In this document: positions 20,443-28,112 of the stretch, piece after piece
How positions within the stretch are numbered: the stretch's first letter is position 1
Layout of the letters: each line of letters begins with the position of its first letter
NCBI GenBank assembly: GCA_040219515.1
Contig: JAVJSI010000018.1
Span: 124,001 to 188,000 of the forward strand
Reading direction: 5' to 3'
Source: Acidimicrobiales bacterium
GTDB taxonomy: Bacteria > Actinomycetota > Acidimicrobiia > Acidimicrobiales > Aldehydirespiratoraceae
DNA: 64,000 nt
Notes under the pieces: generated by a model
What the model was told of the DNA's origin: nothing
What the model saw: the letters and a program-made list of their open reading frames with translations, nothing else
The model's database searches: none
Program-made: the position numbers and the translations under genes

Positions 20443-21125
20443 TGGAACCGCTTCTCGTCCACCCCGAGCCGGTGCCACCGGAGCTCGCCCAGGCCCTCGA
20501 CATCGGGGGCTGGGCCTGGAAGGCCGCGTCCGACATCGACGCGGCGCGACGCGACGAACCGGCCGACGGCTGGATCGGCGCGATCGTGATGGCCACCGGC
20601 GGGTCCGATCTCGAGTCGGCCATTCGCTTCTGCCGGGCGATCCGCAACGGTGACGTCAACGTCGATTCGGTGCTGCTGCTCGTCAACGGCGGCCAGCTCA
20701 TGGAGCTCGATCCCCGCGAGGACCTGTTCGACGACTTCTGCGTCCATCCGTTCCATCCGGTCGAGTTCGAGACGCGGCTCAAGCACGTGTTCCGTCGGTC
20801 CGGTCGCAGCGACGACGTCGAGGTCATCGAGTACGGCCCGCTGGCGATGAACCTCGAGACCTACCAGGCGATCATCGAGGGCAAGCCACTCGACCTGACC
20901 TACATGGAGTACGAGCTGCTGAAGTTCCTGGCCGCGCACCCCGGCAAGGTCTTCACCCGCGAGACGCTGCTCAACCGAGTCTGGGGCTACGACTACTACG
21001 GCGGCGCCCGAACCGTCGATGTCCACGTCCGCCGTCTCCGGGCCAAGCTCGGCGAAGAACACGCCAACCTGATCCAGACGATCCGCTCCGTCGGCTACTC
21101 CTTCGGTCGTTCGCGCTGGGCCTGA
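20442..21125 (+). CDS. glnR: GlnR-type orphan OmpR-family regulator of nitrogen metabolism
   Basis: 227 residues; its ATG at 20442 overlaps the glnA stop. The N-terminal ~110 residues follow a receiver fold but lack the usual acidic pocket and phospho-acceptor Asp context (GWIGAIVMATGG in place of the DxxD region), as in actinobacterial GlnR. The C-terminal winged helix is highly conserved (LDLTYMEYELLKFLAAHPG, VWGYDYYGGARTVDVHVRRL). GlnR activates glutamine synthetases and ammonium uptake under nitrogen limitation. The position directly behind a GS gene supports the call; no histidine kinase is nearby. Confidence 0.8.
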   Translation: MEPLLVHPEPVPPELAQALDIGGWAWKAASDIDAARRDEPADGWIGAIVMATGGSDLESAIRFCRAIRNGDVNVDSVLLLVNGGQLMELDPREDLFDDFCVHPFHPVEFETRLKHVFRRSGRSDDVEVIEYGPLAMNLETYQAIIEGKPLDLTYMEYELLKFLAAHPGKVFTRETLLNRVWGYDYYGGARTVDVHVRRLRAKLGEEHANLIQTIRSVGYSFGRSRWA

Positions 21126-22604: not shown

Positions 22605-22949
22605 TCAGACCGTGGCGATCGCCTCGATCTCGATGCGAGCGCCGAGCGGCAGCGCCGCTACTGCGACGGCCGACCGCGCCGGACGGTGATCGCCGAACTC
22701 CTCGACGTAGATCTCGTTCATCCGGGCGTAGTCGCCCATGTCGGCCAGGAACACGGTGGTCTTCACCACGTCGGCGAGCGACGCTCCCGCAGAGGACAAC
22801 ACCGAGCGCAGGTTCACGAACACCTGACGAAGTTCGGCCTCGACGCCACCCTCGACGAGTCCGTCGGCGGTGATGCCGACCTGACCGGCCGTGAACAGAA
22901 GATCGCCACCACGAACGATGGGTGTGTAGGGACCGACGGGGGTGCTCAT
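22605..22949 (-). CDS. ridA: RidA family enamine/imine deaminase
   Basis: 114 residues. The YjgF/YER057c/UK114 pattern is clear: VGPYTPIVRGGDLLFTAGQVG, VFVNLRSVLSSAGASLADVVKTTVFL, and RSAVAVAALPLGARIEIEAIA with the Arg that binds the substrate carboxylate. RidA hydrolyses reactive 2-aminoacrylate made by PLP enzymes. It starts 5 bp before the end of the Mo-hydroxylase gene's stop on the same strand, so the two are probably one transcript. Confidence 0.93.
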   Translation of the reverse strand: MSTPVGPYTPIVRGGDLLFTAGQVGITADGLVEGGVEAELRQVFVNLRSVLSSAGASLADVVKTTVFLADMGDYARMNEIYVEEFGDHRPARSAVAVAALPLGARIEIEAIATV

Positions 22950-22953
22950 GCCC

Positions 22954-24528
22954 TCACCCTAACGACGAGGCCGGGGTGGTGTCCGACAATCGCGGGTGCG
23001 GCGTGGGCCAGACAGGCGGAAAGCCGATGTGGCGCCACGTGGCGGCGGCGACAGCAGCGAAGACGGCGTCGCTGACCGCCACGGCCGGCCCGCGCGCACC
23101 GGCGGCGTCGATGATGATCTCGATGCGCGGCGTGTCGACGGCGCGGAGGATGCCGAAGCTGCGGATGGTCAGGTCATGGATCCGACCGGCCTCGTCCACG
23201 CCGAGCGACTCGCTCGTGACCCACGACAGGCCCATGTGCGCGGCGCCGACGCAGTACGACCGCAGCACGGTCTCGTCGAGCACCTCGCCCGGTCGCACGG
23301 TGACGGTGATCGCGCCGTCGTCGGCGATCGAGGCCCGAGCCGACCCCCCGGCGGGAGCCGAGATCCAACCCGGCTCGTCGCGCTGCGAGGCGAGTAGCAC
23401 GGCCGCCTCGACCCAACCCGCGCCGCGAATGGCGGCGCTGGTCGGCGGGCCGACGACGTCGACCTCCTCGACCTGCAACTCGGGGGCCACGGACGCGATG
23501 GCCGCGGCGACGCCGGCGGTGCGAGCGACGCGGACGATGCCCGATCCGTCGGCCGCGAGCCCTGCCGCGATCGGCGGCCGCTTCGGACCTCGGCGAACCG
23601 CGTCCTCTCGCGAATAGCGCACCCGCACGGCGCGGCCGTGCTCGTCGGCGAGGCGGCGCGCGACCACTCCCACCTCGCTGGCGGTCTTTCCACCGAACGC
23701 ACCACCGTTCTCCAGCGGTGACGCCGGCTCACCACCCGGTTCACACCACGCGGCGTCGGTCTCCAGATAGCCCGGCTCGACCCACGAGGTGCGCAGCGTC
23801 CGCACCCACTCCCCCGCCGGGAGCTCGATGGGCGGCGCGAAGTCGGCAGTGGTGCGGCGGCCCTGCACCTTGCCCGCCCGGCGGAGCGCCTCGGCGTGGG
23901 TCTCGGCCACTTCCCAACCGTCGTCGGTCGGCACGGCGACCAACGCGTCAGCCGGCGCGGTGTCGTCGGCGAACCCGCCGCGACCCAGGGCGACATGCGG
24001 GCCCACATCCTGGCGGGTGCCACCTTCGAGCGCGGCGCGCACCGCCGCACCCTCGCTGATCGTGGGTGACGCACAACCGAAGGCGACCCACGCGTCGACC
24101 ACCGGTTGCCATCCCGTGCAACGACACAGGTGCGCCTGCAGCGCCTTGGCCGCGGCGTCGCGATCGTCGTGATCGACCCCCTTGGCCCGGAGCCCCTCGA
24201 ACCGGCAGATGATGCCCGGCGTGCAGAAGCCGCACTGGCTCCCGCCCGTGGCCGAGAACGACGCGGCCCACGCGGCGGAAACGTCGTCGGGGAGTCCCTC
24301 GGTGGTCGTGATCTCGCGACCGCGGACCCGACGCACCGGGGTGACACAGGAGACCCGCGGGTGGCCGTCGACGAGCACGGTGCAGCAGCCGCACTGACCC
24401 TGCGGGCTGCACCCGTCCTTCACCGCCGTGACCCCGGCGACCTCGCGCAGGACGTCGAGCAGGGTGGCCGTGTCATCGACCACCTCGACGGTCGAGCCGT
24501 CGACGGAGAGCTGCATCGGTTCCGACAT
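22954..24528 (-). CDS. Compact single-chain molybdenum hydroxylase (xanthine dehydrogenase family)
   Basis: 524 residues from ATG 24528; the earlier start would run 28 codons into the divergent promoter. Residues 1-140 are a complete two-[2Fe-2S] subunit: Cys40, 46, 49 and 61, then Cys99, 102, 135 and 137 (CGFCTPG, CRCTG). The remainder carries pieces of a molybdopterin subunit: a short hammerhead-like part, NGGAFGGK, and a final RSFGILRAVDTPRIEI segment. Together these are only about 370 residues instead of the usual 700 or more, and the catalytic GVGE Glu near the C-terminus is not recognisable. No FAD subunit is adjacent. Either a minimal enzyme or a decayed fusion; the long intact frame favours a working protein. 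Confidence 0.7.
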   Translation of the reverse strand: MSEPMQLSVDGSTVEVVDDTATLLDVLREVAGVTAVKDGCSPQGQCGCCTVLVDGHPRVSCVTPVRRVRGREITTTEGLPDDVSAAWAASFSATGGSQCGFCTPGIICRFEGLRAKGVDHDDRDAAAKALQAHLCRCTGWQPVVDAWVAFGCASPTISEGAAVRAALEGGTRQDVGPHVALGRGGFADDTAPADALVAVPTDDGWEVAETHAEALRRAGKVQGRRTTADFAPPIELPAGEWVRTLRTSWVEPGYLETDAAWCEPGGEPASPLENGGAFGGKTASEVGVVARRLADEHGRAVRVRYSREDAVRRGPKRPPIAAGLAADGSGIVRVARTAGVAAAIASVAPELQVEEVDVVGPPTSAAIRGAGWVEAAVLLASQRDEPGWISAPAGGSARASIADDGAITVTVRPGEVLDETVLRSYCVGAAHMGLSWVTSESLGVDEAGRIHDLTIRSFGILRAVDTPRIEIIIDAAGARGPAVAVSDAVFAAVAAATWRHIGFPPVWPTPHPRLSDTTPASSLG

Positions 24529-24602: not shown

Positions 24603-25523
24603 ATGAGCCCACTCGATCGACGGTCCTTCATTCTCGGCGCAGTCGGAGTGGCCGGCGCCGGCCGTCTGCTCGCGGCCTGCGGCGACGACGAGAGCGGCTC
24701 CCCCGCACCGACGTTGACGACGCTCGAGCCGCTCGGCACTCCCGCACTGGTGCCGTCCTTCTCCGATGGGCTGCGGGGGCCATCGCCCTTCGTCCACTCG
24801 GTCGAGCAGCGCCTCGCCTACGTCCTCCACGACGGCAACGACATCATGCGGGCCAACGCACCCGAAACCATTCAGCTCGAGATCTTCGACGAGTCCGGCG
24901 CCCTCATCGCCGGCGGTGACTCGATTCGCCGCGACACCGGCGTGATCACGCCCTACTACTCGATCTTCTTCACGGCCCCCGCGGCCGGCACCTACCAGAC
25001 CGTGTTCACCAACGACGCCGGCACCTACGAGCACCCGTTCCTGGTGCTCGAGCCGGGCGAGACGGCTGTCCCGCAACCCGGCGACCGGCTCCCGGCGGTC
25101 AACACCGCCACCGTGGCCGATGCCCGAGGGGTCGACCCGCTCTGCACCCGAGTCGAACCATGCCCGTTCCACGAGGCCGATCTCGTCGACGTCCTGGCGG
25201 CCGGTGATCGGCCCGCCGTGGTGAGCATCGCCACACCCGGCTTCTGCCAGACGGAGATCTGCGGCCCGGTGATCGAGCTGCTCATCGACACCGTGGCCGA
25301 CCGGACCGATCTCGAGGTGATCCACGCCGAGGTCTATGTCGATCCACACAACGACGAGGGCCTGGCCAGCGGGACCGGCGGCGACACCACCGAGATCGTC
25401 GACGCCTACGAGCTGACGTACGAGCCCGTGCTCTTCGTGGTCGGTGCCGACGGCATCATTCGCCGCCGCCTCGATGCGATCTACGACGGGTCGGAGCTCG
25501 CCGAGGCGCTCGCGCTCGTCTGA
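24603..25523 (+). CDS. Lipoprotein with thioredoxin-like domain
   Basis: 306 residues. The N-terminus (LDRRSFILGAVGVAGAGRLL then AACG) is a signal peptide with a Cys at the lipobox. A middle beta-sandwich of about 100 residues precedes a thioredoxin-fold domain (about 190-306). That domain has PAVVSIATPGFCQTEICGPV, that is, two Cys separated by four residues instead of two, which recalls SCO/TlpA-type proteins. It probably handles thiols or copper outside the membrane. The end overlaps the convergent esterase by 43 bp. Confidence 0.65.
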   Translation: MSPLDRRSFILGAVGVAGAGRLLAACGDDESGSPAPTLTTLEPLGTPALVPSFSDGLRGPSPFVHSVEQRLAYVLHDGNDIMRANAPETIQLEIFDESGALIAGGDSIRRDTGVITPYYSIFFTAPAAGTYQTVFTNDAGTYEHPFLVLEPGETAVPQPGDRLPAVNTATVADARGVDPLCTRVEPCPFHEADLVDVLAAGDRPAVVSIATPGFCQTEICGPVIELLIDTVADRTDLEVIHAEVYVDPHNDEGLASGTGGDTTEIVDAYELTYEPVLFVVGADGIIRRRLDAIYDGSELAEALALV

Positions 25524-26503: not shown

Positions 26504-26824
26504 TCAGCTGAAGCTCTGACCGCAACCGCAGGTCTTCTGCGCGTTGGGGTTGTCGATCGCGAAGCCGGCGTCCTGGAGGCCGTCCTTGTAGTCGAGGGTG
26601 GCGCCCTCGAGCAGCTGCGCCGACGAGGGATCGACGACGACCTCGACCTTGCCGAACGCGGTGACCATGTCGTCGGCCGCGCGATCGGTGTCGAAGTACA
26701 TCTCGTAGGAGAAGCCCGAGCAGCCACCGGGACGCACGGCCACTCGCAGTGCGAGACCTTCGTCGCCTTCGGCGCTGATCAGTTCGTCGACCTTGGAAAC
26801 TGCTTGTTCGGTGAGGGTGATCAT
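26504..26824 (-). CDS. erpA: A-type iron-sulfur cluster carrier (IscA/ErpA)
   Basis: 106 residues. The three conserved Cys are present: Cys35 in PGGCSGFSYEM, and Cys99 and Cys101 in KTCGCGQSFS. The protein delivers Fe-S clusters to client enzymes; clients in this window include the molybdo-enzymes and complex I. It has its ordinary Cys, so it is not one of the HesB-like selenoproteins known from other bacteria. Confidence 0.92.
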   Translation of the reverse strand: MITLTEQAVSKVDELISAEGDEGLALRVAVRPGGCSGFSYEMYFDTDRAADDMVTAFGKVEVVVDPSSAQLLEGATLDYKDGLQDAGFAIDNPNAQKTCGCGQSFS

Positions 26825-26942: not shown

Positions 26943-28112
26943 GTGGCCCCCACCGCACCCCCGACCCCCGAGTACGTGATGGGACTCCTGCGCGGAGTGA
27001 TCGATCCCGAACTGGGCAGCGACATCGTCGAACTCGGCATGGCCAAGAGCGCCAAGGTCGACGACGCGGGTCACATCCATCTCGACATCGCGCTGACCAC
27101 CAGCGGCTGTCCTCTCCGTGCCCAGATCCAGAAGGACATCCGTAGCCGGCTCACGAGCCTGCCCGGCGTCACCCGGGTAACGATCAGCTGGGGCGAACTC
27201 ACCCAGGAAGAGCGGTCCGAGGCGATGTCGAAGGCCCGCTTCAACGTGAGCAAGGACGCGCCCGACACCGCCGTCCCACCCACGACCAAGGTGATCATGA
27301 TCGCGTCGGGAAAGGGCGGGGTCGGCAAGTCGTCGATGACCACCAACCTGGCCGCCGCACTCGCCGAATCCGGCTTCGCCGTCGGCGTCATGGACGCCGA
27401 CATCTGGGGCTTCTCGGTCCCGCGCATGCTGGGGGTCGAGGGCGACCTGCTCGCCAAGGAAGGCAAGATCACGCCGCTCATCCGCCACATCGGCGAGGGA
27501 CGTCTGGAGATCGTCTCCATGGGCTTTCTCGTCGCCCAACAGGACTCCGCCCTGATGTGGCGCGGCCTCATGCTCAATCGGGCCGTCCAGCACTTCTGCC
27601 AGGACGTCGCCTGGTCGGACGACCTCGACTATCTCCTGATCGACATGCCGCCCGGCACGGGCGACGTGCAGATGGGCCTCGCCAAGATGCTGCCCCGGGC
27701 CGAGATGATCATCGTCACCACCCCGGCCGGCAACGCGCAGAAGGTGGCGGCGAGGGTCGCCGACATGGGCCGAAAGAACTACCTCCGCATCGTCGGCGTG
27801 ATCGAGAACATGAGCGAGTTCGTCGCCCCCGACGGCTCGCGCCACACCCTCTTCGGCAGCGGCGGCGGCCAGGCGCTGGCCGACGACATCGGCGTGCCGT
27901 TGCTGGGCGCCGTGCCCATCGAGCCCGGCGTGAGCGAGGGCGGCGACATCGGCGAACCGGCTGCGCTGGGCGAAGGAGCGGCGGCCGACGTCCTCCGTTC
28001 GATCGCCCGGGCGCTCGCCGAGGAACACGTGCCGCCGGTCGAGATGGCCGGGTGCAGCGCCCGCATGCTCGACGCCGCAGTGGCCGCCCTCGACGAGCTG
28101 GATCTGGCCTAG
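26943..28112 (+). CDS. mrp: Mrp/ApbC/NBP35 P-loop Fe-S carrier ATPase
   Basis: 389 residues from GTG 26943. The N-terminal MIP18/DUF59 domain (VMGLLRGVIDPELGSDIVELGM, TTSGCPL) spans about 1-90. The ATPase has Walker A SGKGGVGKSS (122-131), MDADIWGFSVPRMLG, and DMPPGTGDVQM. The C-terminal CxxC found in many Mrp proteins is not present; only a single Cys (AGCSARM) remains. It probably loads or transfers Fe-S clusters. It diverges from the erpA gene, so two Fe-S assembly genes share one promoter region. Confidence 0.9.
   Translation: MAPTAPPTPEYVMGLLRGVIDPELGSDIVELGMAKSAKVDDAGHIHLDIALTTSGCPLRAQIQKDIRSRLTSLPGVTRVTISWGELTQEERSEAMSKARFNVSKDAPDTAVPPTTKVIMIASGKGGVGKSSMTTNLAAALAESGFAVGVMDADIWGFSVPRMLGVEGDLLAKEGKITPLIRHIGEGRLEIVSMGFLVAQQDSALMWRGLMLNRAVQHFCQDVAWSDDLDYLLIDMPPGTGDVQMGLAKMLPRAEMIIVTTPAGNAQKVAARVADMGRKNYLRIVGVIENMSEFVAPDGSRHTLFGSGGGQALADDIGVPLLGAVPIEPGVSEGGDIGEPAALGEGAAADVLRSIARALAEEHVPPVEMAGCSARMLDAAVAALDELDLA

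Follow-up and report, generated by a model that had tools for sequence, protein, structure and literature searches.

Among the described molybdenum hydroxylases, the selenium-dependent xanthine dehydrogenase family (TIGR03311) shares the one-chain domain order of the 524-residue protein considered here, as does a paralogue of about 880 residues encoded in the same genome. Both have the cluster motif DGCSPxGQCGCCTV and the block NGGAFGGK in common with the short form, which nests among long one-chain proteins in a tree of the FeS part. The short form differs from them in having 332 residues less, missing in nine segments, and in lacking both GQTxxSR and GVGE. The aldehyde oxidoreductase of Desulfovibrio gigas (Mop, 907 aa) has the same fold, aligning over 480 residues at 23% identity with an rmsd of 3.0 A. 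Mop possesses Glu869, Gln807 and a PSGGSR loop, whereas in the short protein Gln807 is replaced by Tyr425 and the others are missing. In human aldehyde oxidase the pterin of the molybdenum cofactor (Moco) is described as held by Gln113, Gln776, Phe807, Arg921 and Gln1203 (PMC6487702). The consulted part of the same report describes a Moco-free variant, G1269R, in which the xanthine oxidase (XO) fold likewise stands without its cofactor; in that variant, however, an active enzyme of full length is altered at one residue, whereas the short form is a natural family from which the cofactor side has been deleted. A survey of orphan molybdoproteins (PMC6147048) likewise describes XO-family-like proteins in genomes without Moco synthesis, and its authors raised Mo-independent forms. 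The consulted sections of that survey report no sequence feature by which the orphans are marked, whereas the short proteins considered here make up a defined family in which binding segments have been deleted.

The gene lies at 22954-24528 on the reverse strand of the window, by which is meant the whole 64,000-nucleotide stretch of DNA that was analysed, and has an ATG start and 524 codons without an internal stop. An upstream GTG, as an alternative start, would yield a protein of 552 aa. The sole GGAGG ends 28 nt upstream and no clear Shine-Dalgarno sequence was found close to the ATG, contrary to the good start signals claimed in the original prediction. Residues 1-150 (24079-24528, reverse strand) contain two [2Fe-2S] domains, Fer2 (residues 9-57) and Fer2_2 (residues 75-146), both scoring over cut-off. 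Residues 151-524 (22957-24078, reverse strand) make up a shortened cofactor half, in which GGAFGGK is retained at residues 275-281 (23686-23706, reverse strand). MoCoBD_1 and MoCoBD_2 matched this half as fragments below the gathering cut-off of 27, the former between residues 275-322 and profile positions 94-142 of 244 (23.4), the latter between residues 414-467 and profile positions 230-283 of 283 (17.8). The protein scored 135.3 bits against TIGR03311, below the curated cut-off of 830.45. The original prediction had thus placed the uninterrupted frame exactly and had correctly described a complete double [2Fe-2S] part, a cofactor part of half length and a kept GGAFGGK block, as well as the missing GVGE, the GVGE of the long paralogue having no counterpart in the 524 residues. 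The full-length one-chain paralogue of the same genome (L148:4266-6908, 881 aa) scored 784 bits against TIGR03311, slightly below the cut-off of 830.

An AlphaFold model of the protein was confident (pLDDT 92.6, pTM 0.92) and predicted the overall XO-family fold, with FeS and cofactor domains, in a shortened form. Approximately 480 residues of the model aligned over the whole length with rat XOR (Z 24.3, rmsd 2.8 A) and similarly with D. gigas aldehyde oxidoreductase (Z 23.6, rmsd 3.0 A); since the alignment spans the whole length of both structures, the core has been retained and pieces have been excised from it. Profile alignment of the short protein with 20 long paralogues (E 8e-106) showed the nine missing segments to be of at least 8 residues each, and the strings TEMGQG and GQTTxSRxT, conserved in the long proteins, fall within the segments lost. 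A GQTxxSR-type segment was present in 20/20 long and 0/138 short proteins. A GxGE-type string occurred in the last 160 aa of all 20 long proteins and of 3/138 short ones, in each of which it lay away from the catalytic position, and one further chance G.GE was seen within the aligned stretch (1/138). The string GQG was found at scattered places in 20/138 short proteins. Tyr425, near-invariant in the short family, stands where the long form has Gln775, the residue aligned with Gln807 of Mop.

Other features of the long enzymes have been kept. The CRCTG cluster motif was present in 138/138 short proteins, the first-cluster motif in 137/138 and GAFGxK in 133/138, and the arginine of the FRGFG block is retained as R368. 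GGAFGGK, R368 and Q98 are counterparts of cofactor-contacting places in the long enzymes. By motif, Q98, F278 and R368 may be read as the counterparts of human Gln113, Phe807 and Arg921, while Gln776 and Gln1203 would have none. The alignments show, at the level of sequence, that the catalytic Glu and the second-half pterin-binding segments have been lost from the short family. We consider it fairly probable that the protein is a former molybdenum hydroxylase, now a cofactor-free two-cluster [2Fe-2S] redox protein in Fe-S and reactive-enamine homeostasis.

A scan of genome contigs yielded 519 relatives, of which the best 80 were kept. All 80 were short (474-569 aa, the shortest clipped by a contig end) and had 54-80% identity to the window protein; full-length homologues, which would have reduced the window gene to a simple deletion, did not occur among these closest sequences. 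Their titles were mostly Acidimicrobiia or Acidimicrobiales, with two named Acidobacteria bacterium and Thermoanaerobacterales bacterium. Within a sample of the class, the short form was patchily distributed, being detected at E <= 1e-60 in 66/198 genomes, some of the matches being fragments. In a wider sample of 396 genomes from the phylum, 42 matched at E <= 1e-50. The short form accounted for 18 of these, every one from the window's class, and in the others the match was confined to the FeS half of long frames. None of 1233 matched plasmid records covered 80% of the short protein. A tree built from the FeS part only (33 short, 20 long and 2 outgroup rows, 153 columns), in which the outgroup branches were long, recovered the short form as a single clade (100/96), itself nested within a larger group (100/96) that also contains 14 long proteins. 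The short form is therefore a family and not a local deletion. No paper on this family was recognised in a literature search, and the part of it that combined RidA, xanthine dehydrogenase, 2Fe-2S and operon gave no papers at all.

Four bp downstream of the short gene, on the same strand, lies ridA (22605-22949, reverse strand), encoding a Rid family enamine/imine deaminase, as the original prediction had stated. The RidA of the window scored 120.7 bits, over the Rid family cut-off of 106.25 but far below the two equivalogs listed. Upstream are genes for an ErpA/HesB-type A-type Fe-S carrier (26504-26824, reverse strand; 123 bits against the ErpA cut-off of 117) and a syntenic Mrp/ApbC-type Fe-S carrier ATPase (26943-28112, forward strand). 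Between them and the short gene, an ORF without Pfam or NCBIfam match (24603-25523, forward strand) is often divergently adjacent in relatives, its counterpart lying upstream on the opposite strand in 41/79 and 12/19 loci; it might be guessed to be TlpA/SCO1-like. A syntenic gene for a GlnR-like winged-helix regulator (20448-21125, forward strand) is found on the ridA side together with two glutamine synthetase-like genes, the glnA names being assigned by inspection of the frames. The order mrp, erpA-like, short gene, ridA, glnR, glnA was common to most homologue loci. Neighbours were counted in two sets of loci, each locus with at least 600 bp available. Homologues of the same length beside ridA, proposed earlier as a check, were found: ridA lay downstream on the same strand in 61/77 and 16/20 loci, within 200 bp in 47 and 14 of these, and was absent or distant in part of the loci. 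A hesB/erpA-like gene was upstream in 70/79 (69 on the same strand) and 19/19 loci, and mrp in 64/79 and 19/19. In all 18 molybdenum-less loci that were read, hesB/erpA upstream and ridA downstream were on the same strand as the short gene, at distances of 15-118 bp and 11-169 bp respectively, the erpA-like gene being contiguous with it.

This arrangement bears on one of the alternatives, a maturation factor, in which the protein would be a two-cluster scaffold or carrier passing on Fe-S clusters or electrons, with the ErpA-like and Mrp-like proteins as its direct partners. The constancy of the same-strand hesB/erpA-like gene, its contiguity in the molybdenum-less loci and the upstream mrp are all consistent with such a role. 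However, all eight cluster cysteines stand in the fixed ferredoxin-like frame of the stable XO-family clusters and gene order by itself is weak evidence; we regard a maturation factor as rather unlikely. Because the synteny is old and vertical, genes may lie side by side without having a function in common. RidA shields PLP enzymes from 2-aminoacrylate, and in Pseudomonas aeruginosa the cysteine desulfurase IscS is among the main targets (PMC9239102). It would thus be reasonable to connect RidA with Fe-S supply.

The window's own genome encodes MoaA, MoaC and MoeA. The relation between Moco genes and the short protein was examined in 100 genomes from one family of the same order, draft or MAG-like as were all genomes used, by counting MoeA_N and MoaA at E <= 1e-50. 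The short protein occurred in 54 genomes, MoeA_N in 51 and MoaA in 50. Among the 54, MoaA and MoeA were both present in 23, one of them in 2 and neither in 29, and MoeA was no commoner with the protein (24/54) than without it (27/46). One of the 29, G649 (64% complete), had a full MoCoBD_1 match elsewhere and was dropped, leaving 28, of which 19 were at least 90% complete. No other MoCoBD_1 over cut-off was found in these 28 genomes, whereas 11/13 Moco-positive controls had one; of the Moco enzyme families this search covered the xanthine-oxidase type, and MoaC was sought in a minority of the 28. In genus g344, 13/14 genomes were without MoaA and MoeA and 14/14 had the short protein, mostly at 705-737 bits, equal to Moco-positive relatives. 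The sole g344 member in the sample with Moco genes, G661, gave three MoeA and three MoaA matches. Both g337 and g338 were mixed, some members having MoeA/MoaA and others not. Assembly gaps may explain some of these cases, and where the MoeA and MoaA genes are close to each other, as in several genomes, a single gap can hide both. Genomes without Moco genes gave weak partial MoaA matches (approximately 70-87 bits against a cut-off of 284, within the first 210 of 336 positions), which were read as other radical-SAM proteins. Genome G087 was without MoaC, MoaA and MoeA but had three full MoCoBD_1 matches; it was read as an assembly gap and left uncounted. An orphan MoaC-like gene (142-165 bits) was observed in seven genomes of family f23 (G058, G113, G121, G125, G154, G157 and G194), none with MoeA or MoaA over cut-off; in G113 and G157, with 142.6 and 145.0 bits, it barely exceeded its own cut-off of 141.5. 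The genomes strongly indicate that the short protein is independent of Moco.

Conservation was counted for 25 of the 28 molybdenum-less proteins (G626, G631 and G663 had no row), near-invariant positions being those at least 95% identical in the 112 other members. Of 77 such positions in the cofactor half, 54 were kept in at least 95% of the 25 proteins, 68 in at least 80% and none in fewer than 50%, and 51/52 were kept in the FeS half. For 12 short genes of g344, dN/dS, by a simple count with dS near saturation, was 0.265 in the cofactor half and 0.22 in the FeS half; for two Moco-positive genera the cofactor-half values were 0.243 and 0.228. The similar dN/dS values and the retention of positions therefore indicate that the cofactor half is similarly constrained with or without Moco genes.

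It is distinctly unlikely that the protein is still a molybdenum enzyme, holding Moco in a shortened pocket to which a second chain or a dimer might supply the missing part, with reduced or altered hydroxylase chemistry. Such an enzyme would account for the retained GAFGxK and FRGFG arginine and for the ability of the window's genome to make Moco. MoaC was found in 61/66 class members with the short protein and, because these are the majority, use of Moco within the class is still allowed for; MoaC is, however, widespread in the class regardless (140/198). The absence of GQTxxSR from all short proteins, the loss of the catalytic Glu, the replacement of Gln775 and an equal conservation in the 28 genomes without MoaA, MoeA or other MoCoBD_1 all argue against a molybdenum enzyme. 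The same losses and the same 28 genomes speak against the earlier suggestion that the protein may, as a molybdenum hydroxylase, oxidise an imine. What had been described as a short one-chain molybdenum hydroxylase is real, undecayed, short, of one chain and next to ridA, but the assignment as a molybdenum hydroxylase is not supported. That the gene is a decaying copy, or carries a deletion unique to the window's genome, has its length as the only point in favour and is scarcely credible given 80 short homologues among the best 80 of 519, purifying selection and shared synteny, in keeping with the original view that it is not decaying.

We return to the favoured reading, a former hydroxylase now acting as a cofactor-free redox protein. 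Its ancestor would have been a one-chain enzyme of about 880 aa whose closest sequence match is the selenium-dependent xanthine dehydrogenase family. Some 330 residues would have been shed, so that the small aldehyde-oxidase domain is largely gone, the first cofactor domain is reduced in part and the second has almost wholly disappeared. The remainder would consist of two [2Fe-2S] clusters, both probably bound to judge from their motifs, and a rigid core left over from the former cofactor half. Moco is presumably absent, so that the protein would be a two-cluster one-electron redox protein, and the old cofactor half may now bind, beside the inner cluster, either a partner protein or some other small ligand. 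As the short gene is intact in relatives without detectable Moco genes, it probably performs an Fe-S job that needs no molybdenum. A physiological role in Fe-S and reactive-enamine homeostasis is suggested by the gene order, because the conserved neighbours are ErpA-like and Mrp-like on one side and RidA on the other. It is tentatively possible that a natural branch of the hydroxylase superfamily has abandoned molybdenum, turned into another kind of [2Fe-2S] redox enzyme or carrier and, in a small system with the ErpA-like carrier and RidA, guards the Fe-S supply against reactive enamines.

Loss of a cofactor pathway is usually held to lead to the loss of large metal enzymes. As far as these genomes show, the emphasis shifts from a tiny molybdenum hydroxylase to a hydroxylase scaffold working where Moco cannot be made. 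Annotation of the short proteins as molybdopterin-binding or xanthine dehydrogenase-like would mislead. The family offers a concrete signature in sequence by which Mo-independent relatives can be told, something that the orphan-molybdoprotein survey, in the sections consulted, had sought and not found (PMC6147048), and it shows which part of the XO fold is dispensable and what stays once the cofactor is gone.
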